From Gammaproteobacteria bacterium (GTDB lineage: Bacteria > Pseudomonadota > Gammaproteobacteria > Arenicellales > Poriferihabitantaceae): a DNA stretch of 38,164 nucleotides. Position 1 is the stretch's first letter, and every line of letters starts with the position of its first letter. The position numbers were made by a program, and so were the translations under genes. Positions 76-26,475 of this stretch are shown in pieces. The stretch is taken from contig JALCBG010000007.1 in NCBI GenBank assembly GCA_028066695.1, positions 1 to 38,164 of the forward strand, read 5' to 3'. The notes below the pieces were generated by a model. That model was not told the origin of the DNA. It made no database searches and saw only the letters and a program-made list of their open reading frames with translations.

Positions 76-100
76 CAAAAATCCCGCCGCGCTACGGCAG
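76..100 (-). terminator. Possible intrinsic terminator after gene B4
   Basis: Read on the minus strand, CTGCCG and CGGCGG (100-95 and 89-84) can form a 6-bp stem with one G-U pair around the loop TAGCG. The stem is followed by G-A and a run of five T (81-77). The stem spans the B4 stop codon. It is short but has both elements of a rho-independent terminator. Confidence 0.4.
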
Positions 101-3085
101 CAGGTCGGCGATTCTGATTTCAATATTGACCGCATTCAGGCCGGAAAACCCGGCGACGAGGTCGGCGCCGCGCAGCCCGAGCAAATAGCGCGCGATGAGA
201 ATGCCGTCCACTTCGTCCACTCCGCCGTCGCCGTCCACATCCAGCGTCCCGGCATGCACGCCGGCCTGCACCGCCGCCTCCAGCCGCGCCGCCTCCAATT
301 CGCTCTGCCCGGCCGGCAGCGCCGCGCCGCGCACGCCGAGAAGATACCGCGCAATCAAAATGCCGTCGGCGGCGTTCACGCCGTCCGTGCCGTCTTCGGC
401 GACATTCAGATACGAATCCAAAATGCCGACGCGAAAAGCGCGCCGGTCTTCCACCGAGTCGTTGTCGGTCACTTCATAGACCACATCCACCGGCGCCGCG
501 GCCGTGGCCGGCGTGCCGGTGATTTCGCGCGAGGACCGGTCAAAAGTCAGGCCCGCGGGCAGGCCGGTCAGCGCATAGGTATGGGGCGTGCTGCCGTTGG
601 CCGCCGCCGGCAGCGTCACCCCCTCGCCCGCGGCGAGCGCATCGCCGGCGACAAACGCCAGGTCGTTCTGCGGCGGAAGTTCCAGCGCCAAGAACGGCGT
701 GGCCTGCGCCAAGTCGCTCCACTCGCTGTTGCCGTGGACGGCGCTTTCGCCGCGCACTTGCGCTTCGTAGGCGAGGCCGTTGGTCAGGCCGGTAAGCGTG
801 TATCGCGGCGACGGCGAGGCGGCGATCTCCGCAAACTGCCAGACTCGGCCGACTCGCCGCCAGCGCAGGCGGTAGACGCTCTCCCCGCCGCGCGCCTCCC
901 AGGCGAGGCGCAGTTTTTGGCTCTTCGGAGTTGCGGCGAAGCCGTCCGGCGCGTAGAGCGGGCGGCTGATGGTGACCGGGTAGTCCGCGGTGTGAACGCG
1001 CAGCAAGACCACATTTTCACCGCCGGCAAGCGGAATGGGGTCGCTCACGGTGTTGCTGGTGATGGCGGTCAGCGAGGCCGGCACAGCCGTCGGTTTGGAG
1101 CGATGGTATTGCGCCACGCCGCCAAAGGTCGCGGTGATGACCACCGCGGTCACCGCCTTTTCCACCTGCAGCGAATACGCCGGCACCAGCGCATTAAAGG
1201 CGGATGTGGCGAGCAGCGAGTTTGCGTCGGTGCGCGCGGTTTCATCGGCGTCGTGAACCAGCAGTTTGCTGATGGCGCCGCCGCGGAACACATCCACGGT
1301 GTAAGTGCGCGAACTCGCGCCGTCTTCGGCGGTGACCACCACCAGGAACACATTTTCGGTTCCGCCGACCACGGTGTTTTGCCGGGTGGTGGGCGGGCCC
1401 AAAAATCCGGCGCGGCCGACTTGGATGAGAGCGCCGGGATCTTCCGCGGTCGGCGTAATGGTCATCTGTATGACATTGTTGTTGACCGGGAGAAAGTAGG
1501 AGGTGACGCCGGCGGCGAACGCGGGCGACAGCACGCCGAATTGGGGCCGCAAATCCGTGAGCAGCGCGCTGCTGCCGGCCTTGCGCCGCGACGCCGTGAT
1601 GGTGTAAGTGCGCGTGGCGCTTCCGTCTTCGGAGGTTGTCACGATGAGGAAGGTGTTGCCCCCGGTTTGCGCCTCGTTTCCGTTTTCTTTGTCTATGGTC
1701 TGCGTGCTGGTCGCGCCGCTTGCGACGCCCCCCAAAAACCCGGCGCGGCCGACTTGCACGCTCGCGCCGCCGGCGTCGGACAGGGTCGGCGTGATTGCCA
1801 ATGAACCGCGGCTGCTCAGCATGCTGAGCGAGTAGGCGAATGTGTCCGCGCTGAACGCCGGCGACAGCGAGAGACCGGAGGAGATTTCCAGCGCCGCGAG
1901 GCTCGCGTCGCTTTTCGCCGCCTGGCGCGTAATCGCGATTTCGTAGGTTGTTTTGGTTTTGTCCTCGGCGGTGACTTCAATGTGAAAGATGTTGCCCGCG
2001 GTTTGCAGATCGTTTCCGCCGTCTTTGTCCACGAGTTGCGTGCTTGCCGAGCCGCCGGCGGCCGCGGCGAGAAAGCCGGCGCGGCCGACTTTGATGGTCG
2101 CGCGGGCATCCGCCGCGGTCGGCGTGATGTCCACATTGGAGACGCGGCTTCTGATCTCGGCCGTGTAGGAGAGCGTGCCGGCGTCAAACGCCGGCGACAA
2201 CTCCACCGCGCCGCCGCCGGCGGCGAGCGCCAGCGATGCGAGCGAGGCGTCGGCGGACGGCAATTCCATGGTCGCGGTGAGCCGGTTGGACCACTCGTTG
2301 GCGTTCGGGGCCGGGGCGTAGGCGCGCACCTCAAAGTCGTATTCGGTGTTCGCGGTCAAATCCTCCACCATGTATTGCATGGCGGTGATTTGCTCGCCGC
2401 AATTTTCCGGGTTGCCCGCGCCGGCGGCGCAGTCGGCGTCGTCGCCGGAAGCGTTTTGCCATGCGCCGGCGGCGATATCGTCCGAGTTGCCGGGCGTGCC
2501 GTCCGGGTCCTGCGCCGAAGTGCGCCAGCGGAGGTTGTAGGTGGTGACGACCGAGCCGGAAGAGACGCGCCATTGCAGTTGCACTTTCCATTTTTTCCCG
2601 CCGGGGTCGGCGGTGAATTTGCGCGGAGACAGCGCCAGTCCGACGGTTTCGGTCGCGGCCTGCGCGACCGCCGACCAGGGACTTTCAAATCCGTCAAAGT
2701 CGCGCGTTTTCAGGCGCGCTTCATAAGTCGTGCCCGGATACAAATTGGTGAACGACGTGGAAGTGGCGTTGGCAAGGGAGACGCCGTTCGGGTTCACATT
2801 GCCGCTGAGGCCCGAGCCGGGCGGTCCCGCGAATCGGAGGCCGGTGGCGGAGTGCCAATCGGTGCCGCGCACGCGCAACGAGGGAACAAAAACCCCGGGT
2901 CCCCCCGGCCCGAACGAGCCCTTGGTCCAAGTGAGATTCAGCGCGGTGGATTCCGACCCGGGTTTCGGCGTGAGCGACAGGTTGGTGGGCGCGGTAACTT
3001 GCGCCTGCGCGGCCGCGGCAAACCACACCGCCGCGGCCAGCAGCGCGCCGGTAAAAGTTTTCCCGCGCATGTTCATGCCGCGCAT
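92..3085 (-). CDS. Array protein B4: secreted FN3/cadherin-like/Ig/dockerin-like modular protein
   Basis: 997 residues, stop TAG. Signal peptide about 1-29 ending AAAQAQ. Then FN3-1 (about 30-145), FN3-2 (150-275) holding the only two cysteines (DDADC...NPENCG), four cadherin-like modules (277-388, 392-500, 503-601, 602-709), FN3-3 (710-798), a putative-Ig module with the GLPAGLTFD...ITGTP signature (799-889), and a dockerin-like C-terminus (890-997) with a canonical second Ca-loop, DVDGDGGVDEVD. The first ATG abuts the TAA of A4; ATGs at 3076 and 3070 are alternatives that match the paralogue starts better (MNMRGK). FN3-3 lacks the usual GAWQSASGDD insertion. The family plan suggests extracellular adhesion or scaffolding; the real ligand is unknown. 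Confidence 0.85.
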   Translation of the reverse strand: MRGMNMRGKTFTGALLAAAVWFAAAAQAQVTAPTNLSLTPKPGSESTALNLTWTKGSFGPGGPGVFVPSLRVRGTDWHSATGLRFAGPPGSGLSGNVNPNGVSLANATSTSFTNLYPGTTYEARLKTRDFDGFESPWSAVAQAATETVGLALSPRKFTADPGGKKWKVQLQWRVSSGSVVTTYNLRWRTSAQDPDGTPGNSDDIAAGAWQNASGDDADCAAGAGNPENCGEQITAMQYMVEDLTANTEYDFEVRAYAPAPNANEWSNRLTATMELPSADASLASLALAAGGGAVELSPAFDAGTLSYTAEIRSRVSNVDITPTAADARATIKVGRAGFLAAAAGGSASTQLVDKDGGNDLQTAGNIFHIEVTAEDKTKTTYEIAITRQAAKSDASLAALEISSGLSLSPAFSADTFAYSLSMLSSRGSLAITPTLSDAGGASVQVGRAGFLGGVASGATSTQTIDKENGNEAQTGGNTFLIVTTSEDGSATRTYTITASRRKAGSSALLTDLRPQFGVLSPAFAAGVTSYFLPVNNNVIQMTITPTAEDPGALIQVGRAGFLGPPTTRQNTVVGGTENVFLVVVTAEDGASSRTYTVDVFRGGAISKLLVHDADETARTDANSLLATSAFNALVPAYSLQVEKAVTAVVITATFGGVAQYHRSKPTAVPASLTAITSNTVSDPIPLAGGENVVLLRVHTADYPVTISRPLYAPDGFAATPKSQKLRLAWEARGGESVYRLRWRRVGRVWQFAEIAASPSPRYTLTGLTNGLAYEAQVRGESAVHGNSEWSDLAQATPFLALELPPQNDLAFVAGDALAAGEGVTLPAAANGSTPHTYALTGLPAGLTFDRSSREITGTPATAAAPVDVVYEVTDNDSVEDRRAFRVGILDSYLNVAEDGTDGVNAADGILIARYLLGVRGAALPAGQSELEAARLEAAVQAGVHAGTLDVDGDGGVDEVDGILIARYLLGLRGADLVAGFSGLNAVNIEIRIADLLP
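93..292 (-). repeat. 200-bp block identical to 9323-9522
   Basis: Encodes the second dockerin-like loop and C-terminus of B4. Read base by base it matches the end of A3 with no difference, then diverges at 293. This is an A/B cross-class identity at an offset of 9230 bp. Confidence 0.85.
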
Positions 3086-6000
3086 TTACGGAAGCAAGTC
3101 CGAGACTTTCGTTTCCACATCGGACGCGGTCAGCCCGGAAAATCCGCTGACAAGTTCCGCGCCGCGCAGCCCGAGCAAATACCTGGCGATGAGAATGCCG
3201 TCGTCGCCGTCCACCGCGCCGTCTTCGTTCGCGTCCAATTCCATGCCGCGCACCCCGGCCTGCACCGCCGCCTCCAGCCGCGGCGCGCCCAATTCGCTCT
3301 GCCCCTCGGCGAGCGCCGCGCCGCGCACGCCCAGCAAATACCGCGCGATAACGATTCCATCGGCCGGATTGACGCCGTCCGCGCCGTCTTCGGCGACATT
3401 CAGTTGCGAATCCAAAATGCCGATGCGAAAGCGCCGCTCGTCGGTCACCGAATCGCCGTCGGTTACGCTGTAGACCACCTCCACCGGCGCCGCGGGCGCG
3501 GTCGGCATGCCGCTGATTTGCCGCGTCGCCGCGGTGAAGAACACGCCGGGCGGCATGCCGGTCAGCGAAAACACATAGGGCGTGGCGCCGTCGGCCGCGT
3601 TCGGCAGCGTAACCACCGAAACGACTTCGCCGGCGACAAACGCCAAGTCGTCCTGCGGCGGAAGTTCCACCGCCACGGCCGGCGCGGCTTCCAGCGATTC
3701 GCTCCATTCGCCGTCGCCGGCCGGGTTGTCGGCGCGCGCCTGCACCTGGTAGGTCGTGCCGTTGGTCAGGCCGGGTATCGTGTATCGCGGCGCGGCGCCG
3801 GCCTCCTCGCCGTTGTCATCGGCGCCGCTCGCCGATTGCCATGCGCCGGGTCCGGTTTTCGTCCGCCAGCGCAAGCGGTAAGTGGTGGTGCCGGCGACCG
3901 CGTCCCACGAGACGCGCAGTTTTTCCGTCTTCGGATTCGCCGCGAGATTTTCCGGCGCGTCCGCCGGGCGCAGAATGGTGACCGGGTAATCGGCGGTGGA
4001 CACTTTCACCAGAATTAAATTTTCGCCGCCGGCCAGCGGAACCGCGCTGCTCGCCGTGCCGCTGGTCAGCGCGGTCGCCGAAGCCGGCGTAACCGTCGGT
4101 TGCGTGCGCTGGTAATTCGCGCTGCCGGCGGTGATGGTCGCGGTGATCACCACCGCGGTTACCGCCCTGTCCACGACCAGCGAATACCCCGGCACGGTCT
4201 GGCTGAAGTCGGCTGTCGGCAGCAGCGAGTTCGCGTCGGTGCGCGAAGTTTCATCGGCGTCGTGAATCAGCAGTTTGCTGACCGCGCCGCCGCGAAACAC
4301 ATCTATCGTGTAAGTGCGCGTGACCGCGCTGTTTTCCGAGGTGACCACCACCAAAAACACATTGTTGCCGCGCCCGACTTCGGTGCCCTGCGCGACCGAG
4401 GATCCGCCCAAATGCCCGGCGCGGCCGACCTGAATGCTCGCCGCGACATCCCGCGTGGTCGGCGTGATGCCCAGTTGTCCGACATCGTTGCCGACCGCCG
4501 CGTAGTAGGAAGTGACGCCGGGGCTGAACGCCGGAAACAGCGTGCCGTGCGAAATGGACAGCGCCGACAGCGCGGCGTCGTCCTCGGCCTGCCGGCGCGA
4601 AATCGCGACTTCATAGGTCTGCATGGCGCTTCCGTCTTCGGCCGTAACTTCAATCTGAAAGGTGTTCTGCGACGCGTCCTGCGCTTCAAACGCCGATGTC
4701 TTGGTGATGGTTTGCGCCGCGCCCATGCCGCTTTGCGCCGAGGCGAGCGCGCCGCTTCGCCCGACTTCCAGCGCCGCCGTGACGTCGTTCGCGGTCGCGG
4801 TGATGGTCAGGGTGGAAGTGTTGTTGCGTATGCTCCCCGTGTAGGAAAAAACCGCCGGATCAAACGCCGGGGTGAGCGCAACCGGGCTTCCGGTAACCAG
4901 CGTCAGCGCGGACAGCGACGCATCCACGGCCGCTTTCAGGCGCGAAATCCGGATTTCGTAGATGCGCATATCCCCGTTCTCGGCGGTGACTTCAATATTA
5001 AAGATGTTTTCCGCCGGTCCCTGCGCGCTCGTTCCGCCGGAGGTGTCCATGGTGCGCCGAACCGCCGCGCCGCTGTCCACCGCGTTGCCGCCGACATCTA
5101 TGGACGCGCCGCCGTCCGAAGCGGTCGGCGTGAGTTCCACATACTTCGCGGAATTGCGGACGGTGGCGTTGTAGGTAAGAATGTCCGCGTCAAATTCCGG
5201 CGAGAACTCCACATTGCCGAGGGCGTCGCCGATGGCCAGCGAGCGCAGCGAATCGTCGTAACTGAGCCCTTCCGTGGTGAGCGTCAGCGAGTCCGACCAT
5301 ATGCCGGGACCTATGCTGTTTTCCTGGCGCGCCTGAAAGTCGTAATCGGTGTTTTCGGCGAGCCCGGCGATTTCGTATCTGGTTGTGCCGGCGGCGATTT
5401 CCTCGCCGCAATTTTCCGGGTTTGCCGCGCCGTCGGCGCAGTCGGCGTCGTCGCCGGCGGCGTTTTGCCATGTGCCGGCGGCGACATCATCGGAATTTCC
5501 GGGCGTGCCGTCCGGGTCCTGCGCCGAAGTGCGCCAGCGCAAATGGTTTTTGGTTACCGTGCCGGCGTTGGACGCGGCGCTCCATTGCAGCGTGACGCGC
5601 CAGGTCATCGCATCCACCTGCGCCGAGAAACTGCGCGCGCCCAGTTGCGGTTTGCCCGGGCTGTCGCCGCTCAGCGTCACGCCCTGCGCGACCCCCGACC
5701 AGGCGCCGGTTCCGCTGGAGTTTCGGACGCGCACGCGCGCTTCATAAGTGGTGTCGGGCGACAAATTGGAGAGGGTCGTCTGGCTGACAGCGGGATCGAT
5801 GTAGAGAAAATTGCCGCTGCCCAGCGTATTGGAGGCGACCACGCCGGAGGGCAGGGTGCTGAAAAAGACGTCGTTGCCCCAAGTCCCGCCGGATTGGCGC
5901 ACATCCAGTATCTGCCGTTGAATTTCGCCGCTCGGCTGCGTCCAAGTGAGGCGCAGCGCGGTGGATTCCGAGCCCAGCTCGGGCGTGAGCAACACGTTGG

Positions 6001-6100
6001 AGGGCACGCCCTGCGCATGCGCCTGCGCGCCCGCGCCAAACAACAGCGCGGCGGCGGCGAGCATGCCGGTGAATGGGCCGGTGAAAAACCTCTTTAACAT
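3086..6100 (-). CDS. Array protein A4: secreted FN3/cadherin-like/Ig/dockerin-like modular protein
   Basis: 1004 residues from the ATG at 6100 (MLKRFFTG). An in-frame extension to 6160 exists, but the paralogues A1-A3 share this start. Signal peptide about 1-30 (QAHAQ). FN3-1 about 31-142, FN3-2 about 150-278 with the conserved Cys pair, four cadherin-like modules (279-390, 391-502, 503-602, 603-710), FN3-3 711-811, putative-Ig 812-896, dockerin-like 897-1004 with loop DANEDGAVDGDD. Large parts are identical in DNA to A1 (533 bp) and to B2 (284 bp), and the dockerin to B3 (147 bp). This makes A4 the best connected donor or recipient in the array. First gene of unit 4; B4 begins at the base after its stop. 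Role inferred only from modules: secreted surface or matrix protein. Confidence 0.85.
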   Translation of the reverse strand: MLKRFFTGPFTGMLAAAALLFGAGAQAHAQGVPSNVLLTPELGSESTALRLTWTQPSGEIQRQILDVRQSGGTWGNDVFFSTLPSGVVASNTLGSGNFLYIDPAVSQTTLSNLSPDTTYEARVRVRNSSGTGAWSGVAQGVTLSGDSPGKPQLGARSFSAQVDAMTWRVTLQWSAASNAGTVTKNHLRWRTSAQDPDGTPGNSDDVAAGTWQNAAGDDADCADGAANPENCGEEIAAGTTRYEIAGLAENTDYDFQARQENSIGPGIWSDSLTLTTEGLSYDDSLRSLAIGDALGNVEFSPEFDADILTYNATVRNSAKYVELTPTASDGGASIDVGGNAVDSGAAVRRTMDTSGGTSAQGPAENIFNIEVTAENGDMRIYEIRISRLKAAVDASLSALTLVTGSPVALTPAFDPAVFSYTGSIRNNTSTLTITATANDVTAALEVGRSGALASAQSGMGAAQTITKTSAFEAQDASQNTFQIEVTAEDGSAMQTYEVAISRRQAEDDAALSALSISHGTLFPAFSPGVTSYYAAVGNDVGQLGITPTTRDVAASIQVGRAGHLGGSSVAQGTEVGRGNNVFLVVVTSENSAVTRTYTIDVFRGGAVSKLLIHDADETSRTDANSLLPTADFSQTVPGYSLVVDRAVTAVVITATITAGSANYQRTQPTVTPASATALTSGTASSAVPLAGGENLILVKVSTADYPVTILRPADAPENLAANPKTEKLRVSWDAVAGTTTYRLRWRTKTGPGAWQSASGADDNGEEAGAAPRYTIPGLTNGTTYQVQARADNPAGDGEWSESLEAAPAVAVELPPQDDLAFVAGEVVSVVTLPNAADGATPYVFSLTGMPPGVFFTAATRQISGMPTAPAAPVEVVYSVTDGDSVTDERRFRIGILDSQLNVAEDGADGVNPADGIVIARYLLGVRGAALAEGQSELGAPRLEAAVQAGVRGMELDANEDGAVDGDDGILIARYLLGLRGAELVSGFSGLTASDVETKVSDLLP
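3159..3305 (-). repeat. 147-bp block identical to 6250-6396
   Basis: Lies in the dockerin-like end of A4 and matches the same part of B3 without a mismatch, at an offset of 3091 bp. Confidence 0.8.
3855..4387 (-). repeat. 533-bp block identical to 24218-24750
   Basis: Covers the end of cadherin-like module 3, all of module 4 and the start of FN3-3 in A4. Aligned line by line with A1, 20363 bp away, I find no mismatch or indel, including silent positions. Confidence 0.85.
5692..5975 (-). repeat. 284-bp block identical to 16717-17000
   Basis: Encodes nearly all of FN3-1 of A4. The same bases form FN3-1 of B2, at an offset of 11025 bp. Similarity continues past a single difference at 5976. Confidence 0.85.
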
Positions 6101-6150
6101 GTCAATTGTGCCGGCGAAATGCATTCGGGGGAAACGGAAATCGCCGGGAA

Positions 6151-6179
6151 ATCCTAGCAAACCCCGCGCGGGCGCGCTA
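6151..6179 (-). promoter_or_regulatory. Promoter of unit 4 (A4-B4)
   Basis: Extended -10 TGCTAGGAT (TAGGAT at 6151-6156), identical to units 1 and 2. At 17-bp spacing the -35 position reads TAGCGC (6174-6179) and overlaps the TAG stop of B3, so this copy has lost the TTGCCG seen in the other three. The 76-bp gap 6101-6176 also holds the conserved leader ending in CAATTGACATG. Confidence 0.55.
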
Positions 6180-9100
6180 CGGCATCAAACCGGCGATTTT
6201 TGCCGCGATTGCGGCCGCGTCCAGATTGGAAAATCCGGCGATAAGGTCGGCGCCGCGCAGCCCGAGCAAATACCTGGCGATGAGAATGCCGTCGTCGCCG
6301 TCCACCGCGCCGTCTTCGTTCGCGTCCAATTCCATGCCGCGCACCCCGGCCTGCACCGCCGCCTCCAGCCGCGGCGCGCCCAATTCGCTCTGCCCCGCGG
6401 TCAGCGCCGCGCCGCGCACGCCCAGCAGATAGCGCGCGATGACGATTCCGTCCGCCGGATTGATTCCGCCCGCGCCGTCTTCGGCGACATTCAGATACGA
6501 CTCCAAAACGCCGACGCGAAAACGCTGCTCGTCGGTCACCGACATGTTGTCGGTGACGCGGTAGACCACCTCCACCGGCGCCGCGGCCGCGCCCGGCGTG
6601 CCGGTGATTTCGCGCGAGGACGCGTCAAAAGCCAGTCCGGCCGGCAGCCCGGTCAGGGTAAAGGTGTGGGGCGTGGCGCCGCCGACCGCGTTTCCCAGCA
6701 CCACGCCGGCGCCGGCGGCGAGCGTCTCATTGGCGGCAAACGCCAAATCCGGCTGGTCCGCGGCGGAGGCAAACTCAAACGCGGTCGCCGACGGCGTTCC
6801 CTCCGCCGCCGCGCTCCATTCGCCGCCGCCGGCCGCGTTCACGCCGCGCACCGCCACTTCGTATGCGGCGCCGTCGGTAAGGCCGCGGATTCTATACAGC
6901 GGAAAGTCCGCGACCGCTTCGCCGTTTTCGTCATCGCCGCCCGCCGACTGCCAGGCGCCGGGCGCGCCGCCGCCGGCGTCTTTCAGCCGCCAGCGCACGC
7001 GGTAGCCGGTGACCACGGGCGCGGACCCTCGCGTCCAGCGCGCCAGCAATTTCGCGCGTTGCGGCGACACCGTCAAACCCGCCGGCGCGGGCGGGCTGCG
7101 CAGAATGGTGATCTCATATTCGGGGCCGCTGATGTTCACCTTGATCACATTGAGGCCGCGCCCCAGCGTAATCGGCGGGGTCGGCGCGTTGTTCTGGAAC
7201 GGGAAGAGGGAGGACGAGCCGGGCGGGCGGTAGGTGCCGCCGGGCTCGTTGTGCGCCACGGTGATCACCACCGACTGCGCGGTGGTCGCGACAAAGTATT
7301 TGTCCCGCGTCCTGTCAAGAATGGTTGCGGGCGGGACCGCCGAGGTGAAAAGCAGCGAGTTTTCCGCGGTGCGTTGGTTCGCGGGCAACGACGCGTCGTG
7401 GACTTCCAGTTTGCTGAAATTGGCCGGGCGGAACAGGCGGATGGTGTAGGTGGTAACGCGCATGCTGTCTTCGGAGGTGACCTCGACCAAATACACATTT
7501 GCGCCGCGATGGGCGTCCTGCGTGCTGGTGGCGCCGGGCGAGATATGCCCGCTCAGAGAGCCGGGGACGCCGACTTTGACGGTTTTGGTGACCGGGTCCC
7601 CCAATGTCGCCGTCGGAGTGATGCCGAACCGCCCGACGAACTGCACAAAATTCGCCCCCGCGACATTGTAGGAGGTGATGTCGGGATTGAACGCCGGCTG
7701 CAGTTCGCCGTGCGAAATCTCCAGTGTTAGCAGGGCGGAGTCGGTTGCCAGCGGCTGGCGAATCAGTTGAATGGTGTAGGTGCGCGTGGCCGCCCCGTCT
7801 TCGGCGGTGACCTCAATGAGAAAGATGTTGGTATTGGTGTTTCCGGCGGTTCCCCCCGATTCGTCGTAGCCCTGGCGGCTGCGCTGGCCGCTGGCGACTC
7901 CCGCCAGAAACCCGGCGCGGCCCACTTTGATGGACGCGCCGGCGTCGGCCGCGGTCGGAAAGATGTCAAAAGCGACGCTGGTAAGGGTGTTTCGGAGGAA
8001 AGTCCGGTAGGAGAGCGTTTCCGGAGCAAACGCGGGCCGCAGCCCGGCATGGGCCGACACGGCCAGCGCGGAAAGGCTCGCGTCCGTGTTCGCCTGCAGG
8101 CGCGTGACCGCGATTTCGTAGATTTTCACCGAGCTGTCCTCGGCGGTGACCCGAATGCGAAAGGTGTTTTTCTCCGGGTCCTGCCGGGCGGCGCCGGCGG
8201 CTTTGTCAATGGTCTGGCGGCTCGCCGCGCCGCCGGTGGCGGCCGCCTCAAAGCCCTTGCGGCCGATTTCTATCGCGGAAGTGCCGGCCGCCGACGCGGT
8301 CGCGGTGATGTCCAGATTGGAGGTGACGTTGCGGATTTCGGCGGTGTAGTTGGTCGTGTTTTTGTCAAACGCCGGCGTGAGCGCGATGGCGTTGCCGCCG
8401 CCGTCGGCGAGCGCCAGCGCGCTGAGGTCGGCGTCGTCGCTGAGTTGCTCCACCGTGAAAGTGAGGCGGTTGGACCACCCGCTGAACCCCCCGCCGCTTT
8501 TTTCGGCGCGCACTTCAAAGTCATAGTCGGTTTCCGCGGGCAGGTTTTGGATCAGGTAGCGCGAAGTGGCGGCCGAGAGTTCCTCGCCGCAATTTTCCGG
8601 GGCGGACGCGCCGTCGGCGCAGTCGGCGTCGTCGCCGGAGGCGTTTTGCCATGCGCCGGCGGCGACATCATCGGCGTTGCCGGGCGTGCCGTCCGGGTCC
8701 TGCGCCGAGGCGCGCCAGCGGACATGCCAGTTGGCGACCGTGCCGAAGCCGGACGCGATGCTCCATTGGAGTTGAATCCTCCACTTCTCCATGCCCGGCT
8801 CCGAAGTAACCAGGCGCGGACTCAGCGCCGGCAGGGGCGTGTCCATGCTTAGGGTCGCGACTTGCAGAGTCTCCGACCAAGACCCATTGACAGGGGCAGG
8901 GGTCAAAAACCCCGGGACTATGTAATAAGCCCGCATTTGCACCTGGTAAGTCGTCGCCGGCATCAAACCGCTGACGACTCCGCCGGTGGCGTCGGGGTGA
9001 ACCCTTCCTGTGCTGATTGTGCGGCCCTCCCAGATCGCGCCGCTGGGCAATCTGTTGTCTATCACGGTAGCGGCCGGACGGAGAGCGCCGAGAGAGCGCA

Positions 9101-9305: not shown

Positions 9306-9321
9306 GTCATTTTGCCGCGCA

Positions 9322-17149: not shown

Positions 17150-20100
17150 TTACGGCAGCAGCCCGGCGATGTTCGCGGCGATTTCGGCCGCGTCCAATCC
17201 GGAAAATCCGGTGGTGAGTTCGGCGCCGCGCAGCCCGAACAAATAGCGCGCGATGAGAATGCCGTCGTCGCCGTCGGCGTCGCCGTCCCCGTCCACATCC
17301 AAAAACATGTTGTCGGCGCCGATTTTGATTTCCGGCTCCAACTCGCCGAACGCGGCCGCGCTCTGCCCCTGCGTGAGCGCCGCGCCGCGCACGCCGAGCA
17401 GATACCGCGCGATGAGAATGCCGTCGCGCGCGTCCCTGGCGCCGCTTTCATCCACATCCAGCGTGAACGCGACCACGCGCACGCGGAAAATCTGCTCGTC
17501 CTCCACCGCGCCGCCCTGCGTCACACGGTAGGTGACCTCGGCCGCCGGCGCGGTCTCGGCGCTTGGCGTGCCGCTGATTTGCCGCGTGCTCGCGTCAAAC
17601 GCCAGGCCGGCCGGCAGGCCGGTCAGCCCATAAGTGAGCGACGAGCCGCCGCTCGCCGCCGGCAGCGTAATCGCCGTGAGCGCCCGGTCCTTGAGCAGCG
17701 CCAAATCGGGCTGCTGCGAGGCGAATTCCACGCCGACCGCCGGCGTGGCGTCCAGCGACGCGCTCCACTCGCCGTCGCCGGCGCGGTTGTCGGCGCGCGC
17801 CTGCACCTGGTAGGTGGTTCCGTTTGTCAGGCCGGTAATCGTGTATTGCGGCGCGTCCGCGGGCGCGATTTCTTCGCCGTTGTCGTCGGCGCCGCCCGCC
17901 GACTGCCATGCGCCGGGGCCGGTTTCCGTCCGCCAGCGCAAGCGGTAAGTGGTGGTGCCGGCGACCGCGTCCCACGAGACGCGCAGTTTTTGCGTCTTCG
18001 GCGCCGCCCTGAGGTTTTCCGGCGCGTCCGCCGGGCGGGTGATGGTGACCGGGTAATCGGCGGTGTGGACTTTCAGCAGAATCACATTTTCGCCGCCGGC
18101 GAGCGGAATGTCCGCGCTCGGCGAGCCGCTGGTGATGGCGGTCGCCGAGGCCGGCGTAACCGTCGGCTGGGTGCGCTGGTAATTGACGCCGCCGGCGGTG
18201 ATGGTCGGGGTGACGACCACCGCGGTCACCGCCCGGCCCACGGTCAGCGAATACGCCGGCGTCAGCGGGTCAAAGTCCGAGGTGGCGAGCAGCGAGTTCG
18301 CGTCGTTGCGCGAGGCCGAGGCCACGCCCGCGTCGTGAATCAGCAGTTTGGTGATGGCGCCGGCGCGGAACATATCTATGGTGTAAGTGCGGGTGCTCCC
18401 GTCTTCGGCGGTGACCACCGTCAAAAACAGATTCCGGGTGCCGCCGCCGACAATGGTGTTCTGCGCGGTGGTGGCCGCGCCCAAAAATCCGGTGCGGCCG
18501 ACCTGAACGCCCGCGACCGAATCATTCGCGGTCGGCGTAATCGTGAACTGCGCGACACCGTTGCCGACCGCGACATAGTAGGAGGTGATGCCGGGGCTGA
18601 ACGCCGGCGACAGCGTGCCGGTGGAAATGGCCAGCGCCGACAGCGAGGCGTCTTGCGCCGCCGCCCTGCGCGAAACCGCGATTTCGTAGACCTGCGTGCT
18701 TTCGTCCTCGGCGGTGACTTCCACCTGATAGGTGTTTTCGGTTGCGTCCTGCGCGGCGTTTCCGTCCGTGCGGTCCACGCCCTGGCCCGCGCCGGCGCCG
18801 CTTTGCGCCGCGGCGAGAAATCCGGCGCGCCCGATTTTCAGGGAGGCGCCGCGCGCGTCGGACAGGGTCGCGGTGATCTCCACGCCGGTGCGGTGGCTGC
18901 GCACCGCCGCGGTGTAGGCGAACACCGCCGGGTCAAACGCCGGCGTGAGAACCAGTTCCGAACCCGAGGACAGCGTCAGCGCGGTCAAACTCGCGTCCGT
19001 GCTCACCGCCTGGCGCGACACGAGAATTGTATAGATGCGCATGTTTGCGCCGTTTTCCGCGGTTACCACGACATCAAAGGTGTTTTCCGCCGGTCCCTGC
19101 GCGGCGCCTCCGCTGGTTTTGTCCAGGGTGCGGCTGGCCGCCGCGCCGCTGTCCACCGCGTTGCCGCCGACCGTGACGCCCGCGCTCGCGTCCGCCGTGG
19201 TCGGCGTGATGTTCACCGACAGCACCGAACTGCGCACGGAGACGGTGTAAGTGAGAATGCTCTCGGAAAACGCCGGCGACAATTCCAAATCGTTGACGCC
19301 GTCGCTGACCACCAGCGCGCTCAAGTCCGCGTCGGAGTTCAGTCCGTCCACGGTGAAAGTCAGCGGGTCCGACCAGTTGCCGGCGCCATGCTGGTTTTCC
19401 GAGCGCGCCTGAAAGTCGTAACGGACGCCATCGGTCAGCCCGGTGACCTCGTAACTGGTCACGGCGGCGCCCAGTTCCACGCCGCAATTTTCCGGATTTG
19501 CCGCGCCGTCGGCGCAGTCGGCGTCGTCGCCGGCCGCGTTTTGCCATGTTCCGGCGGCGACATCGTCGGAGTTGCCGGGCATGCCGTCCGGGTCGCGCGC
19601 CGCGGTGCGCCAGCGGAAATGGTGTTTGGAAATCGTGCCGGAGTCGGGCGCGGCGCGCCATTGCAGCGTGGTGCGCCACCGCATCAGGCCCGGCTGCGAC
19701 GAGATGCTCTTCGCGGTCAGCGTCGGTTTGTCCGGGGTGTCGCCGCTCAGCGTTACGGCTTGCACGACCGCCGACCAAGCACTGAGGTCCCTTTCGTTGC
19801 CCAGAGATGCGACGCGCGCCTCGTAGGTGGTCGCCGGCTGCAAATTGGTGAAAGTCGCGGTAGTGGCGGTTCCAGCCATATAGTTGGAGAGGGAGCCGGA
19901 GCCCGAGAGGGAGCCGACAATAGTCACGCCCGTGGGTACGCGGTTTTGATCATTACTGGAGTGCCACGCGGTGCCGAATACGCGCAAGTGAACTTGGTTG
20001 AGACTGATTCCGTCCGGCGGGGAGGGGTCCGGCGTCCAACTGAAATCCAGCGAAGTGGATTCCGAGGCGCCGGTCGGCGCGAGCGTCGCGCCGGTGGGCG

Positions 20101-20185
20101 CGTCGGGCGCATTTTGCGCCTGCGCGGACGCGGCAAACAGCACCGCCGCGGCGGCGAGAAGTCCGGTGAAAAACCTCTTTAACAT
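17150..20185 (-). CDS. Array protein A2: secreted FN3/cadherin-like/Ig/dockerin-like modular protein
   Basis: 1011 residues from the ATG at 20185 (MLKRFFTG); an upstream in-frame start at 20236 is rejected by comparison with A1, A3 and A4. Signal peptide about 1-24 (SAQAQ). FN3-1 has the variant opening APDAPTGATLAP. FN3-2 has DDADC...NPENCGVE. Four cadherin-like modules follow; the first carries VGGNAVDSGAA, shared only with A4, in place of the usual VGRAGFL. Then FN3-3, putative-Ig (GLPAGLAFD) and dockerin-like 904-1011. Both Ca-loops of the dockerin-like part are canonical (DVDESGARDARD, DVDGDGDADGDD), a subtype shared only with A1. Leads unit 2; B2 follows after 9 bp. Confidence 0.85.
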   Translation of the reverse strand: MLKRFFTGLLAAAAVLFAASAQAQNAPDAPTGATLAPTGASESTSLDFSWTPDPSPPDGISLNQVHLRVFGTAWHSSNDQNRVPTGVTIVGSLSGSGSLSNYMAGTATTATFTNLQPATTYEARVASLGNERDLSAWSAVVQAVTLSGDTPDKPTLTAKSISSQPGLMRWRTTLQWRAAPDSGTISKHHFRWRTAARDPDGMPGNSDDVAAGTWQNAAGDDADCADGAANPENCGVELGAAVTSYEVTGLTDGVRYDFQARSENQHGAGNWSDPLTFTVDGLNSDADLSALVVSDGVNDLELSPAFSESILTYTVSVRSSVLSVNITPTTADASAGVTVGGNAVDSGAAASRTLDKTSGGAAQGPAENTFDVVVTAENGANMRIYTILVSRQAVSTDASLTALTLSSGSELVLTPAFDPAVFAYTAAVRSHRTGVEITATLSDARGASLKIGRAGFLAAAQSGAGAGQGVDRTDGNAAQDATENTYQVEVTAEDESTQVYEIAVSRRAAAQDASLSALAISTGTLSPAFSPGITSYYVAVGNGVAQFTITPTANDSVAGVQVGRTGFLGAATTAQNTIVGGGTRNLFLTVVTAEDGSTRTYTIDMFRAGAITKLLIHDAGVASASRNDANSLLATSDFDPLTPAYSLTVGRAVTAVVVTPTITAGGVNYQRTQPTVTPASATAITSGSPSADIPLAGGENVILLKVHTADYPVTITRPADAPENLRAAPKTQKLRVSWDAVAGTTTYRLRWRTETGPGAWQSAGGADDNGEEIAPADAPQYTITGLTNGTTYQVQARADNRAGDGEWSASLDATPAVGVEFASQQPDLALLKDRALTAITLPAASGGSSLTYGLTGLPAGLAFDASTRQISGTPSAETAPAAEVTYRVTQGGAVEDEQIFRVRVVAFTLDVDESGARDARDGILIARYLLGVRGAALTQGQSAAAFGELEPEIKIGADNMFLDVDGDGDADGDDGILIARYLFGLRGAELTTGFSGLDAAEIAANIAGLLP

Positions 20186-20236: not shown

Positions 20237-20265
20237 ATCCTAGCAAAACCCGCGCGCGGCGGCAA
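20237..20265 (-). promoter_or_regulatory. Promoter of unit 2 (A2-B2)
   Basis: Minus strand: TTGCCG (20265-20260), 17-bp spacer, extended -10 TGCTAGGAT (TAGGAT 20242-20237). It sits in the 165-bp gap between the B1 stop and A2. The rest of that gap holds a GC-rich palindrome (20312-20325) and three GCATTC hexamers (about 20332-20350); I see no gene in it. Confidence 0.6.
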
Positions 20266-20350: not shown

Positions 20351-23300
20351 TCAGGGAAGCAAATCGGAGATCTTGGTCTCCACATCGCTCGCGGTCAGCC
20401 CGGAAAAACCCGCGACAAGTTCCGCGCCGCGCAGCCCGAGCACATATCGCGCGATGAGAATGCCGTCGTCGCCATCCACGGTGTTGTCGCCGTCCACATC
20501 CAGTTTCATGCCGCGAATTCCGGCCTGCACCGCCGCCTCCAATCGCGCCGCGTCCAGCCCGCTCTGCCCGGCGGCGAACGATTCGCCGCGCGCGCCCAGC
20601 AAATAGCGCGCAATCAAAATGCCGTCGGCGGCGTTGATGCCGTCCGCGCCGTCGGCGGCGACATTAAGATGCGAGTTCAAAATTTCCACGCGAAAAGCGC
20701 GCGAGTCGGTGTCCGAGTTGTTGTCGGTCACTTCATAGACCACATCCGCCGCCGCCGCCGCGGCGCTCGGTGTGCCGGTGATTTCGCGGGTGTTCGCGTC
20801 AAACGCCAGGCCGGCCGGCAGCCCGGTCAGCGCATAGGTGTAAGGCGTGCTGCCATCCGCGGCTTCCGGCAGCGTCACTCCTTCGCCCGCGGCGAGCGCC
20901 TCGCCGGCGACAAACGCGAGGTCATCCGGCGGCGACAGGTCCAGCCCGACCGCCGGCGTGCCCTCCACCGTTTCGCTCCAATCGGTGTTGCCGTGGACTT
21001 CGCTGAGTCCGCGCGCCTGCACTTCGTAGGCGGCGCCGTCGGTCAGTCCGGCAATCGTGTAGCGCGGCACCGCGACCGCCTCGCCGTCTTCGTCGTCGCC
21101 GCTCGCCGATTGCCACGCGCCGGGCGAGCCGCCGCCGGCGTCTTTCAGCCGCCAGCGCACGCGGTAGCCGCTCTCGCCGCCGCCCGCGTCCCACGAGACG
21201 CGCAGTTTTTCGCGCTTGCCGTCGGCGCTCAGGTTGCCCGGCGTGTAGAGCGGACGGGTGATGGTGACGATGTAATCCGCGTCCAGATCAATGAACACCG
21301 CGAGTTCATTTTCGCCGCCGAGCAGCGGAATGGGGTCGCTGGCCGCGCCGCTGGCGAGGCTGGGCAGGGTGCGCACCAAGGAGATTGTCGCGCGGCGCGG
21401 GAATGGCGCGCCGGGCGCGAGGTAATGCGCCTCGGCGCCATGGTTCACGGTGAGGATGACCGCGGTCACCGCTTTGTCCACATTCAGCGAATACAGCGGC
21501 CTTGCCTGATTAAAGCCGGTGAGAAGCGAGTTCGCGCCGGTGCGCGAGGTTTCCGCCGCGTCGTGAATTTGCAAGTTGGTGATGGGGCCGCCGCGGAACA
21601 GGTTGACCTTGTAGGTGCGCGTATTCACGCCGTCTTCGGCGGTGACCACGACCTCAACCTGGTTGCGGCAGTAGTAGCGGTGGCAGCCGCCGGTGAAGAT
21701 GCTGCTGCCGCTGAGTTCCCCGTCCACGAAAACCGAGGCGGCGGTGCCGGGATGCGCCGGGGTTACCGTGAGGTTGACACTCTGAACACTGTTGGGCAGG
21801 AACCCGGCGTAGGAGGTGATGCCGGGGGCGAATGCGGGCGACAGCGTGCCGCCGCCGAGCAGCAAACGCGTGAGGAGCGTGCTGTTGCTCGCCTTTCGCC
21901 GCGACGCCGAGATGGTGTAGGTGCGCGTGGTGTTTCCGTCTTCGGCGGTGGTTTCCACCAGAAAGAGGTTGCCGCCGGTTTGCGGCTCGGTTCCGCTGTC
22001 TTTGTTTATGGCCAGCAGCGGGCTGAACCCGGTGCTTTTGAGATTCATCAGGGTCTCCCCGGCGCGGCCGACTTTCACGCTCGCGGCGGAATCGGCCGGA
22101 GCCGGTATGAACTCCAAGTTGGAACGACTGCTGCGCACGCTGACCGAGTAAGCGAGCGTGTCCGCGCTGAATGCCGGCGTCAGTTCAAAGGTGATGCCGG
22201 GGCGGACTACTTCCAGATTGGCCAGGCTCGCGTCGCTTTTCGCCGCCTGGCGCGTCACCGCGATTTCGTAGGTTTTTTTGGTGCTTCCGTCCTCGGCGGT
22301 GACTTCCACCTGAAAGGTGTTGCGCGCCGGACCCTGCCGCGCGGCGCCGGCCGATTTGTTCAGGGTCTGCGTGCTGCTGTTGCCGAGCGCCCCGGCGCGG
22401 CCGACTTTGATGGTCGCGTTGTCATCCGAAGGGGCCGCGGTGATGTCCACAGCGGTGATGTGGCTCCTGACCTCCACCGTGTAGGAGAGCGTCGCGGAGT
22501 CAAACTCCGGCGTCAACTCCCGCGCGGCGTTGTCAAGGAATTGCAGCGAGTCCAGCGACGCGTCGTCGCCGAGCAAATTCATCGTCAGCGTGAGGCGGTT
22601 GGACCACCCGCCGGCGCCTGTGGCGGTGGAGGCGCGCACTTCAAAATCGTATTCTTTGTTCGCGGGCAGGTCGGACAGCATGTAACGCCGCGCTTCGGCG
22701 CCCAATTCCTCGCCGCAATCCTCCGGGGCGGCCGCGCCGGCGGCGCAGTCGGCGTCGTCGCCGGACGCGTTTTGCCAGGCGCCCGCGAGGGCTCCGGGAT
22801 TGAGGCCGGGGTTGTCCCGGTCCGGGTCAATTTTCGCGGTGCGCCAGCGGACATGGTAGTTGGCGGCGGTGAAGCCGGACGGAACGCTCCATTGGAGTTC
22901 AATGCTCCATTTTTTTCCGCCGGGATTCGCGGTGAGTTTGCGCGGACTCAGCGCCGGTGAAGGAGTGTCCTGCGTCGCGGTTTCCACCTGCAAAGTCGCC
23001 GACCAACCTCCCGGAACAGACTGGATTTGGTCGTAAGAGCGCATGCGCAACTCATAGGTAGTCGCCGGCGCCAAACCGATGAGGTCGCCGCTGGTGACGG
23101 GACCATCAACCGTGTTCGCGAAGAGTTCCACACCGTCCCACTCCACGCCGTCGGGCAATTCGTTGGTGACGGTAACCCCCGGCCAGTTGTCGCCGCGAAC
23201 GCGCATCGCGATGGTGTGAAAACGGGCGGTAAGTCCGCCGTCCAGTGTGTTTGTCCAGCGGAGATTGACCCTGCTTGATTCCGACCCGGGAACCGGTTCG

Positions 23301-23413
23301 TAAGTCAAAGCGGTGGGCGGGGCGTGCTGCGCGCGCGCCTCTCCGGCCGCGGCAAAAAACGCCGCGGCCAGAAAAAGGCCGGCGAAAACTTTCTTTTGCA
23401 TGCGCATTTTCAT
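20351..23413 (-). CDS. Array protein B1: secreted FN3/cadherin-like/Ig/dockerin-like modular protein
   Basis: 1020 residues from the ATG at 23413 (MKMRMQKKVF), 32 bp after the A1 stop. Signal peptide about 1-29 (GEARAQ). FN3-1 opens PPTALTYEPVPG like B3. FN3-2 has the Cys pair in the variant form DDADC...APEDCG, and its preceding loop is DRDNPGLNPGALAG instead of the usual DGTPGNSDD. Four cadherin-like modules follow. The third holds a second Cys pair (GGCHRYYC) found in no other member and lacks the VGRAGFL motif. FN3-3 is of the WRLKDAGGG type. Then putative-Ig and dockerin-like 913-1020 with loop DVDGDNTVDGDD. Second gene of unit 1, probably on one transcript with A1. Confidence 0.85.
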   Translation of the reverse strand: MKMRMQKKVFAGLFLAAAFFAAAGEARAQHAPPTALTYEPVPGSESSRVNLRWTNTLDGGLTARFHTIAMRVRGDNWPGVTVTNELPDGVEWDGVELFANTVDGPVTSGDLIGLAPATTYELRMRSYDQIQSVPGGWSATLQVETATQDTPSPALSPRKLTANPGGKKWSIELQWSVPSGFTAANYHVRWRTAKIDPDRDNPGLNPGALAGAWQNASGDDADCAAGAAAPEDCGEELGAEARRYMLSDLPANKEYDFEVRASTATGAGGWSNRLTLTMNLLGDDASLDSLQFLDNAARELTPEFDSATLSYTVEVRSHITAVDITAAPSDDNATIKVGRAGALGNSSTQTLNKSAGAARQGPARNTFQVEVTAEDGSTKKTYEIAVTRQAAKSDASLANLEVVRPGITFELTPAFSADTLAYSVSVRSSRSNLEFIPAPADSAASVKVGRAGETLMNLKSTGFSPLLAINKDSGTEPQTGGNLFLVETTAEDGNTTRTYTISASRRKASNSTLLTRLLLGGGTLSPAFAPGITSYAGFLPNSVQSVNLTVTPAHPGTAASVFVDGELSGSSIFTGGCHRYYCRNQVEVVVTAEDGVNTRTYKVNLFRGGPITNLQIHDAAETSRTGANSLLTGFNQARPLYSLNVDKAVTAVILTVNHGAEAHYLAPGAPFPRRATISLVRTLPSLASGAASDPIPLLGGENELAVFIDLDADYIVTITRPLYTPGNLSADGKREKLRVSWDAGGGESGYRVRWRLKDAGGGSPGAWQSASGDDEDGEAVAVPRYTIAGLTDGAAYEVQARGLSEVHGNTDWSETVEGTPAVGLDLSPPDDLAFVAGEALAAGEGVTLPEAADGSTPYTYALTGLPAGLAFDANTREITGTPSAAAAAADVVYEVTDNNSDTDSRAFRVEILNSHLNVAADGADGINAADGILIARYLLGARGESFAAGQSGLDAARLEAAVQAGIRGMKLDVDGDNTVDGDDGILIARYVLGLRGAELVAGFSGLTASDVETKISDLLP

Positions 23414-23445: not shown

Positions 23446-26400
23446 TTACGGCAGCAACCCGGCGATTTTCGCCGCGATTGCGTCCGCGTCCAGATTGGAA
23501 AATCCGGCGGTAAGTTCGGCGCCGCGCAGCCCGAACAAATAGCGCGCGATGAGAATGCCGTCGTCGCCGTCGGCGTTTCCGTCCTCGTTGACATCCAATA
23601 ATATGCCGTCCGCGCCGGGTTTGATTTCCGCCTCCACCTCGCCGAACGCGGCCGCGCTCTGCCCTTTGGTGAGCGCATCGCCGCGCACGCCGAGAAGATA
23701 CCGCGCGATCAAAATGCCGTCGCGCGCGTCCCTCGCGCCGCTTTCGTCCACATCCGGATTGAAAGTAACGATGTCCACGCTGAAAATCCGCTCGTCAAAT
23801 TCGGAGTTGGCGTCGGTGACGCGGTAGGCGACCTCGGCCGGCGCCGCGGTTGCCGCGCTTGGCGTGCCGCTGATTTCGCGCGCGACATCGTCAAACGCCA
23901 GGCCGGCCGGCAGGCCGGTCAGGGTAAAAGTGTAGGGCGTGGTTCCGCCGCTCGCGTTCGGCAGGGTGATCGCGGCCGGCAGCGCCTGCGCGGCGATGAA
24001 CGCCAAGTCGGACAACTCCGCGGAGATTTCCACGCCGGCCGCAGGCGCGGCTTCCACCGATTCGCTCCACTCGCCGTCGCCGGCCGGGTTGTCGGCGCGC
24101 GCCTGCACCTCGTAGTTGGTTGCGTTGGTCAGGCCGGTAATCGTGTATCTGGGCGCGGCGCCGGCCTCTTCGCCGGCGTCGTCATCGCCGCTCGCCGATT
24201 GCCATGCGCCCGGCCCCGTTTTCGTCCGCCAGCGCAAGCGGTAAGTGGTGGTGCCGGCGACCGCGTCCCACGAGACGCGCAGTTTTTCCGTCTTCGGATT
24301 CGCCGCGAGATTTTCCGGCGCGTCCGCCGGGCGCAGAATGGTGACCGGGTAATCGGCGGTGGACACTTTCACCAGAATTAAATTTTCGCCGCCGGCCAGC
24401 GGAACCGCGCTGCTCGCCGTGCCGCTGGTCAGCGCGGTCGCCGAAGCCGGCGTAACCGTCGGTTGCGTGCGCTGGTAATTCGCGCTGCCGGCGGTGATGG
24501 TCGCGGTGATCACCACCGCGGTTACCGCCCTGTCCACGACCAGCGAATACCCCGGCACGGTCTGGCTGAAGTCGGCTGTCGGCAGCAGCGAGTTCGCGTC
24601 GGTGCGCGAAGTTTCATCGGCGTCGTGAATCAGCAGTTTGCTGACCGCGCCGCCGCGAAACACATCTATCGTGTAAGTGCGCGTGACCGCGCTGTTTTCC
24701 GAGGTGACCACCACCAAAAACACATTGTTGCCGCGCCCGACTTCGGTGCCTTGCGCCTGCGACGGCGCGCCCAAAAATCCGGCGCGGCCGACCTGCACCA
24801 TCGCGGCCGCGTCGGGAGTCGGCGTAATCGTGAACTGCGCGACGCCGTTGCCGATGGCGGCGTAATAGGAGGTGACGCCGGGGCTGAACGCCGGAAACAG
24901 CGCGCCGTGCGAAATGGACAGCGCCGACAGCGCGGCGTCGTCCGAAGCCGCGCGGCGCGAAACCGCGAGTGTGTAGGTCTGCGTGCTTCCGTCTTCGGCC
25001 GTGACTTCAATCTGAAAGGTGTTTAGCGACGCGTCCTGCGCGGCAAGCGCCGATGTCTTGTCTATGGTCTGCGCCGCGCCGGCGCCGCTTGTCGCCGCGG
25101 CGAGCGCGCCGGGGCGGCCGATTTTAATTCCCGATGCGGCCGCGTCGTTCGCGGTCGCGGTGATGGTCAGCGTGGTGGTGTTGTTGCGTATCAGCGCATC
25201 GTAGGAAAGCGTCCCCGGGTCAAACGCCGGCATGGGCATAATCGTGCTTCCGGTAACCAGCCGCAGCGCGGACAGCGACGCATCCGCGCTCGCTTTCAGG
25301 CGCGAAACCGAGATTTTGTAGACGCGCACATCCCCGTTCTCGGCGGTGACTTCCACATTAAAGGTGTTTTCCGCCGGACCTTGCGCGGCGCTTCCGGAAG
25401 TTTTGTTGACCGACTGCGAACTGGCCGAGCCGCTGTCCACCGCCGCCTCGGAGCCGGCGCGGCCGATTTTGATGGTCGCGGTGCCGTCAGCCGCGGTCGG
25501 CGTGATGCTCAGGTTATTTATGGAATTGCGGATTTCGGCGGCGTAGGCGAGCGTGCCCGCGCGAAACGTCGGCGACAATTCCACATCGGCGTTGCCGTCG
25601 TTGACCACCAGCGCGCTCAGCGAATTGTCGCCGCTGACCCCGTCCACGGTGAAAGTCAGTATGTCCGACCACGAGCCCACGCCGATGCTGTTTTCCTGGC
25701 GCGCCTGAAAGTCGTAATCGGTGTTTTCGGCGAGCCCGGTGATTTCGTAGCGCCTTATTTCGGCGGAGATTTCCTCGCCGCAATTTTCGGGGTTTGCCGC
25801 GCCGTCGGCGCAGTCGGCGTCGTCGCCGGCCGCGTTTTGCCATGTTCCGGCGGCGACATCATCGGAGTTGCCGGGCGTGCCGTCCGGGTCCTGCGCCGAA
25901 GTGCGCCAGCGCAAATGGTTTTTGGTTACCGTGCCGGCGTTGGACGCGGCGCTCCATTGCAGCGTGGCGCGCCAGGTCATCGCGCCGGGCTTTGCCGAGA
26001 AACCGCGCAGGCTCAGCGCCGGTTTGCCCGGGGAGTCGCCGCTCAGCGTTACCGCCTGCGCGGTCGCGGAAAAGGCCGAGCCTTGCGCGTCTTCGTCATA
26101 AGTCCGCATGCGCAGCTCATAAGTGGTTGCCGGCTGCAGACCGGTGATTTGCGCGGAAGGGGAGCCGGGATTAAGACCGCCGCGAGAATCCCTGTTGCCG
26201 GTGACCGTTACGCCTTCGGGCGTCACATCGCTGGTTTGGGAGCCGAGCGTCCCCCATCCTTCGCCGAAGACGCGCATATTGAGGAAGTACCAGCCGACTC
26301 CGCCTGAGCCGCTTGGGGCGGTCCCCTCGGTCCAACCCAAATCCATGGCGGTGGATTCCGCGCCGGCGGTCGGCGTGAGCGTGATATTGGTCGGCGGAGT

Positions 26401-26475
26401 GACTTGCGCCTGCGCGCCCGCGCCAAACGCCAGCGCGGCGGCGGCAAAAAGTCCGGTGAAAAACCTCTTTAACAT
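23446..26475 (-). CDS. Array protein A1: secreted FN3/cadherin-like/Ig/dockerin-like modular protein
   Basis: 1009 residues from the ATG at 26475 (MLKRFFTG); the in-frame ATG at 26526 would place the promoter inside the gene. Signal peptide about 1-24 (AGAQAQ). FN3-1 25-140, FN3-2 148-275 with DDADC...NPENCGEE, cadherin-like modules 276-390, 391-505, 506-603 and 604-711, FN3-3 712-810, putative-Ig 812-900, dockerin-like 902-1009 with two canonical loops (DVDESGARDARD, DVNEDGNADGDD). It shares a 533-bp perfect block and a 96-bp block (25871-25966 with 5499-5594) with A4 at the other end of the array. First gene of the array, divergent from btuC. Confidence 0.85.
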   Translation of the reverse strand: MLKRFFTGLFAAAALAFGAGAQAQVTPPTNITLTPTAGAESTAMDLGWTEGTAPSGSGGVGWYFLNMRVFGEGWGTLGSQTSDVTPEGVTVTGNRDSRGGLNPGSPSAQITGLQPATTYELRMRTYDEDAQGSAFSATAQAVTLSGDSPGKPALSLRGFSAKPGAMTWRATLQWSAASNAGTVTKNHLRWRTSAQDPDGTPGNSDDVAAGTWQNAAGDDADCADGAANPENCGEEISAEIRRYEITGLAENTDYDFQARQENSIGVGSWSDILTFTVDGVSGDNSLSALVVNDGNADVELSPTFRAGTLAYAAEIRNSINNLSITPTAADGTATIKIGRAGSEAAVDSGSASSQSVNKTSGSAAQGPAENTFNVEVTAENGDVRVYKISVSRLKASADASLSALRLVTGSTIMPMPAFDPGTLSYDALIRNNTTTLTITATANDAAASGIKIGRPGALAAATSGAGAAQTIDKTSALAAQDASLNTFQIEVTAEDGSTQTYTLAVSRRAASDDAALSALSISHGALFPAFSPGVTSYYAAIGNGVAQFTITPTPDAAAMVQVGRAGFLGAPSQAQGTEVGRGNNVFLVVVTSENSAVTRTYTIDVFRGGAVSKLLIHDADETSRTDANSLLPTADFSQTVPGYSLVVDRAVTAVVITATITAGSANYQRTQPTVTPASATALTSGTASSAVPLAGGENLILVKVSTADYPVTILRPADAPENLAANPKTEKLRVSWDAVAGTTTYRLRWRTKTGPGAWQSASGDDDAGEEAGAAPRYTITGLTNATNYEVQARADNPAGDGEWSESVEAAPAAGVEISAELSDLAFIAAQALPAAITLPNASGGTTPYTFTLTGLPAGLAFDDVAREISGTPSAATAAPAEVAYRVTDANSEFDERIFSVDIVTFNPDVDESGARDARDGILIARYLLGVRGDALTKGQSAAAFGEVEAEIKPGADGILLDVNEDGNADGDDGILIARYLFGLRGAELTAGFSNLDADAIAAKIAGLLP
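24218..24750 (-). repeat. 533-bp block identical to 3855-4387
   Basis: A1 copy of the block shared with A4; see 3855-4387. Flanking sequence diverges sharply at both ends. Confidence 0.85.

Follow-up and report, generated by a model that had tools for sequence, protein, structure and literature searches.

A ten-gene array encoding long, probably surface-exposed FN3 and cadherin-like proteins, eight of them in four A-B pairs, in a gammaproteobacterium of the Poriferihabitantaceae

An array of genes for long FN3 and cadherin-like proteins lies in the draft genome (2.08 Mb, 89 contigs, 92% complete) of Gammaproteobacteria bacterium (Arenicellales, Poriferihabitantaceae; assembly GCA_028066695.1), on a stretch of 38,164 nucleotides of contig JALCBG010000007.1 that was analyzed as a whole and is referred to here as the window. 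Positions 92–26475 are occupied by eight intact genes on the minus strand, transcribed in the order A1, B1, A2, B2, A3, B3, A4, B4 (Table 1), at exactly the limits given in a preliminary description of the locus. The strict alternation of A and B genes proposed there was borne out, its chance being 2/70 with the genes labeled by 5′-end clade, and each B gene, said to follow its A gene within 0–32 bp, was found 9–32 bp from it in all four units; the gaps from a B gene to the next A gene are 165, 115, and 76 bp. These short gaps presuppose ATG starts of the types described earlier, namely MLKR(F/V)FTG in the A genes and a mostly Met/Asn/Lys-rich peptide in the B genes, with B4 (MNMRGKTFTG) as the exception.

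Although the eight genes fall within the bounds first drawn, the array does not end there. The left end of the window (contig C20) and an end of contig C79 have exactly 55 bp in common, a 55-mer present at these two contig ends only, and C79 continues with G9, G10, an SDR gene, and clpB. The full array comprises ten genes, all with open, intact reading frames: the four A-B units together with G9 and G10, which are preceded by 65 and 144 bp, respectively, and are separate units rather than a fifth A-B pair. On its other side, the array is flanked by the divergent btuC gene. In one of three congeners (G001), the homologues of the SDR gene (73% identical) and btuC (67%) are divergent and lie approximately 141 bp apart with nothing between them, whereas in the other two btuC adjoins a different gene. 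This adjacency of the two flanking genes supports the joining of C20 and C79, as well as the view that the array arrived or grew at this site once the species had split.

Table 1. Array genes, flanking gene, and promoter-like and terminator-like sequences (window positions unless contig C79 is named; aa, amino acids; CL, cadherin-like domain).
Feature	Position	Strand	Remarks
A1 (1009 aa)	23446..26475	-	signal peptide, FN3-1, FN3-2, three CL, X, FN3-3, He_PIG, dockerin-like C-terminus
B1 (1020 aa)	20351..23413	-	module order as A1; 32 bp 3′ of A1
A2 (1011 aa)	17150..20185	-	array A gene
B2 (1541 aa)	12515..17140	-	9 bp 3′ of A2; several additional N-terminal FN3 units
A3 (1025 aa)	9322..12399	-	CL2 92% nucleotide identity to B3; dockerin-like end 92% to B4
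B3 (1042 aa)	6177..9305	-	16 bp 3′ of A3
A4 (1004 aa)	3086..6100	-	X module matches A1 exactly; He_PIG and the 3′-end cluster with B2
B4 (994 aa)	92..3076	-	9 bp 3′ of A4; atypical signal peptide, B-type FN3-2
G9 (893 aa)	1..26	-	first 26 bases; rest on C79, 17469-20150
G10 (976 aa)	C79, 14394-17324		without FN3-1; followed by SDR gene
btuC	26616..27701	+	divergent flank of array
Promoter-like block ahead of A1	26527..26555	-	TTGCCG-N17-TAGGAT, TGC before -10; by eye
Promoter-like block ahead of A2	20237..20265	-	like A1 block; by eye
Promoter-like block ahead of A3	12451..12479	-	-10 = TACTAT; by eye, uncalled by consensus scan
TAGGAT ahead of A4	6151..6156	-	without -35 part; by eye, uncalled by consensus scan
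Terminator-like hairpin and T run at B4 stop codon	83..104	-	consensus match only

Among the genomes sampled, the array is particular to this species. It was not found in the three sampled congeners, none of which contains PF12733 (Cadherin-like) or the C-terminal module of the array proteins, and a whole-protein profile run against genome contigs matched no relative. Matches to the cadherin-like family number 70–75 in this genome and two, both in one genome, among 59 relatives. The trees of A and B genes described below are accordingly confined to this species. Loss of the array from G001, instead of its gain here, is possible, but strong matches to the X module are limited to the ten array genes, and the module was absent from all 144 relatives searched.

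Pfam searches placed fn3 and Cadherin-like above their cut-offs in all eight window genes, the latter at 72–142 bits against a cut-off of 24.2, and He_PIG above its cut-off in seven of the eight; the X module is a fourth cadherin-like unit. At the C-terminus, Dockerin_1 (PF00404) was detected below threshold in several of the genes, with hmmscan scores of 17–18 bits for A1, A2, and B4 against a gathering score of 22.9; A1 and B4 clear the cut-off once neighboring matches are summed, and some genes elsewhere in the genome also reach it. A search of NCBIfam gave no informative match. The common module order noted previously is thus present in all eight genes as fn3, Cadherin-like, and a dockerin-like end, although B2 departs from it in its additional FN3 units. 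An AlphaFold model of A1 (seven rows; mean pLDDT 68.7) consists of successive beta-sandwich domains followed by terminal helices, and its Foldseek matches are multi-domain Ig/FN3 rods, with GhpA of Aureispira at the top, followed by titin, contactin, and S-layer proteins. Where rods of FN3 and cadherin-like domains carry Sec-type signal peptides, they are as a rule extracellular. The array proteins are probably long surface proteins with an adhesive role.

A promoter-like block was identified approximately 52 nucleotides 5′ of the ATG of A1, A2, and A3; by manual count, those of A1 and A2 agree with the sigma-70 consensus at 8 of 12 positions, the threshold of the scanner being 9, and a consensus scan of window positions 1–20000 made no call at the A-gene blocks lying there. 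For the promoter earlier assigned to each A gene, the candidate at A1–A3 is this conserved promoter-like block, and at A4 it comes down to a putative -10 element that the scan did not call. The spacing and the promoter-like sequences suggest that A and B may be co-transcribed in one message.

The phylogenetic meaning of the A and B labels was examined in trees built on codon alignments (support given as SH-aLRT/UFBoot), in which B2 was represented by its last FN3-1 unit and its additional FN3 units were kept out of the alignment, and in approximately unbiased (AU) tests of the eight window genes. In the tree of the 5′-end (signal peptide, FN3-1, and FN3-2), B1–B4 form one clade (99.1/100), G9 groups with A2, and the A|B split is the maximum-likelihood tree. 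This split is accepted also in the first cadherin-like domain (CL1), but not in the region from CL2 to X or in that from FN3-3 onward, where it is rejected at p = 2e-55 and p = 1.0e-4, respectively; conversely, the 5′-end rejects A3+B3 (7e-83), a grouping that lies within the maximum-likelihood tree of CL2-X. The CL1-X tree contains A1+A4, B1+B4, and A3+B3, each at 100/100, and the 3′-half tree contains A4+B2 (99.5/99) as well as A3+B3 and B1+B4, with sequence shared across the classes in the shaft and 3′-end by A3/B3, A4/B2, and A3/B4. Mean amino acid identity within the A class compared with that between classes is 74 versus 49% for the signal peptide and 69 versus 51% for FN3-2, but 53 versus 56% for He_PIG and 64 versus 68% for the dockerin-like part. 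A and B are therefore true phylogenetic classes at the 5′-end alone: the labels, whose failure there the preliminary description had named as a possible refutation, hold up at that end and lose their meaning in CL2-X and at the 3′-end.

The same data bear on how the array arose. In CL1-X, units 1 and 4 are sisters by both their A and their B genes, which supports duplication of the pair there, whereas in units 2 and 3 any such signal has been overwritten. The idea of four clean, interchangeable versions fares worse, since A and B genes exchange from CL2 onward, even inside one unit (A3/B3). Near-identical tracts connect A1 and A4 (97.1% over 713 nucleotides), A4 and B2 (99.4% over 325 nucleotides, between FN3-1 of A4 and the first additional FN3 of B2), and the 3′-ends of G9 and G10 (97.4% over 848 nucleotides). 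Duplication of the pair followed by ectopic recombination fits these trees and identities best. It is very improbable that the mosaic pattern is largely an artefact of short-read assembly. Such a reading draws on the 89 contigs of the draft, on repeats of 325–848 nucleotides at 97–99% identity, and on the contig break within the array, where the 55-bp overlap is typical of a de Bruijn graph; yet most of the shared segments are 85–95% identical, far beyond read-error collapse, the ten frames are open, and the outer SDR and btuC genes match the adjacent order in G001.

The dockerin-like C-terminal module extends well beyond the array. A profile of this module matched about 44 genes of this genome, spread over more than 20 contigs, and no gene in 99 relatives, which included the three congeners; a sample of 369 genomes across the class added four others with one to four weak matches, and a profile of the dockerin-like end run on contigs recovered three distant loci only, including proteases of a Deltaproteobacteria and a Thiotrichaceae metagenome-assembled genome (MAG). 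The module is approximately 105 amino acids long, ends at most 10 residues from the stop in nearly all of the proteins of this genome, and contains F-hand-type D-x-D/N loops (e.g., DVDGDGGVDEVDGILIARY) approximately 54 residues apart. At least one calcium-binding F-hand loop was present in 46 of 46 open reading frames and two were recognized in over half; the window proteins have a canonical second loop and, in six cases of eight, a degenerate first one. The carriers that were scanned contain domains of the fn3, cadherin-like, He_PIG, Calx-beta, and YDG/MBG types. Canonical dockerin modules comprise 60–70 amino acids with closely spaced repeats, a size and spacing from which the present module departs, and the structure model of the module by itself is poor (pLDDT 52).

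These features raise the question of whether the proteins are assembled as in a cellulosome, with the dockerin-like ends binding cohesins and the rods displayed on a scaffoldin. Several proteins of the genome reach the Dockerin_1 cut-off, calcium-loop motifs are present, and dockerins are the best solved-structure matches of the module profile, with weak E-values (0.0003 and above). The search for cohesin (PF00963), on the other hand, gave no match in this genome or in 29 relatives at E ≤ 0.1, and the length of the module and the distance between its loops exceed those of canonical dockerins, which makes such an assembly quite improbable. A candidate cohesin, the N-terminal domain of two secreted proteins encoded on contig C44, looked cohesin-like by eye and could be counted in favor of this explanation, but had no Pfam cohesin match (E ≤ 10) and none in PDB, and BLASTP with the Thiotrichaceae gene gave no support for that identity; it is retained merely as a lead.

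Other occurrences of the module were recorded alongside. C44 carries two adjacent secreted genes (L108, 1305–2270 and 2–1204, both on the minus strand) with related N-terminal domains outside Pfam families; the first ends in the module and the second is cut off by the contig end. The secreted proteases with the module at their C-terminus lie at 2744–4513 of L073 (Thiotrichaceae MAG) and at 3894–6844 of L071 (Deltaproteobacteria MAG), the latter with several module copies and apparently split across two overlapping frames. Long proteins (up to 2553 amino acids) with the module are encoded on C11, C24, C35, and C71, several of them at contig ends, and one that was scanned is of the YDG/MBG type. 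Runs of N in or beside module genes on C38 and C42 (L045, L046) represent scaffold gaps or masked stretches, and C81 (L056, 9589–14178) encodes a protein rich in FN3 in which a stretch of leucine-rich repeats (by eye) and three dockerin-like loops were noted. Elsewhere in the window, a Cobalamin riboswitch (window 31334–31543, minus strand; 107.8 bits) precedes a btuB-type receptor gene beside btuF, btuD, and btuC.

The explanation that we favor, and consider probable as a whole, is that of a species-specific array of ten genes for secreted rods, shaped by pair duplication and exchange, in which A and B rods are used together. The array would have grown at the intergenic site between the SDR gene and btuC, where an ancestral two-gene unit, A followed by B, was tandemly duplicated into four units. 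Segments of the shaft and C-terminus would then have passed from gene to gene, A and B alike, by ectopic recombination or gene conversion, with the signal peptide and the two N-terminal FN3 domains staying as two classes. The proteins would be exported by Sec, attached to the surface through the common dockerin-like F-hand module, and projected as rods of approximately eight beta-sandwich domains, with distal FN3 tips of one kind in A and another in B. The pair would be made from one message and may serve as an adhesin or matrix layer with two specificities, perhaps in heteromeric form. That two 5′ classes have persisted while other parts of the genes underwent exchange is the strongest argument for the importance of the A-B pair. 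A wider proposal, tentative and doubtful, would combine this two-tip, two-component adhesin on freely recombining shafts with a display system assembled after the species split from its sampled congeners, in which approximately 44 rod or repeat proteins dock through the dockerin-like module to a surface partner other than cohesin.

Several findings weigh against the favored explanation. The whole-chain TM-scores of the A1 Foldseek matches are approximately 0.1, so that these back the general rod type only, and the cohesin search was empty. The contrast between classes in FN3-1 is small (A-A 42, B-B 36, A-B 35% identity), and the signal peptide of B4 is not B-like, so that the classes are imperfect even at the 5′-end. 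Some mosaic joins may be assembly errors, given the number of contigs and repeats longer than common short reads. Recombination, moreover, crosses A and B freely in the shaft and C-terminus, as would be expected under the simplest rival, an ordinary tandem expansion of redundant single adhesins in which A/B alternation is a by-product of copying a two-gene block and implies no joint function. G9 and G10 follow without A-B pairing, and further family members stand in tandem on C30, C46, C52, and C11 with no A/B pattern evident. This account is nevertheless rather unlikely: the 5′ classes have stayed distinct despite the homogenized remainder, and the short spacing from A to B is kept in all four units, which suggests that two distinct tips, produced jointly, are under selection.

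Recombination among the genes could also be read as a repertoire for surface variation, with recombining cassettes yielding mosaic antigens or adhesins as in host-associated gene-conversion systems. Antigen diversity commonly arises through gene conversion (PMC4534519); the array has long near-identical tracts between diverged genes, swapped across A and B, and FN3-1, at the N-terminus, is its least conserved module (about 35–42% amino acid identity). That the array serves this purpose is unlikely, as none of the ten genes is disrupted, neither silent cassettes nor a single expression site are present, promoter-like sequence stands at unit heads, and the swapped parts are mainly the shaft and C-terminus, the exposed tip being mostly spared.

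If the joint use of A and B rods is correct, selection holds paired classes apart at the N-terminus while recombination homogenizes everything below, in an array whose site is unoccupied in a sister species. The common C-terminal module on approximately 44 surface-type proteins raises the question of dockerin-like display in bacteria without recognizable cohesins.

No description of a comparable array was found in the open-access literature, but several known systems share some of its features. FN3 and cadherin proteins of sponge-associated bacteria are likewise secreted multi-FN3 and cadherin-type proteins, for which adhesion to host tissue has been proposed (PMC8163846, PMC6506613); the available parts of these accounts report domain enrichment and do not include a tandem A/B array with a common dockerin-like C-terminus. 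Type I dockerins (PF00404) of cellulosomes likewise have duplicated calcium-binding F-hand-type loops and stand at the C-terminus of many differing secreted proteins. The array module differs from them in its size, in its loop spacing, and in the lack of a detected cohesin, and the domains of the ten array proteins and the other carriers scanned are of the adhesion type, not carbohydrases. Gene-conversion families of surface antigens (PMC4534519) are also mosaic through segmental exchange among paralogues, whereas in the array all copies are intact, units are headed by promoter-like sequence, and exchange mainly affects the shaft and C-terminus. The grappling hook protein GhpA of Aureispira (PDB 9fly, 9flp, 9flw) is likewise a bacterial rod protein, extracellular and built from many beta-sandwich domains; GhpA is a single giant protein, unlike the array, and its match to A1 is a general one over the whole chain.

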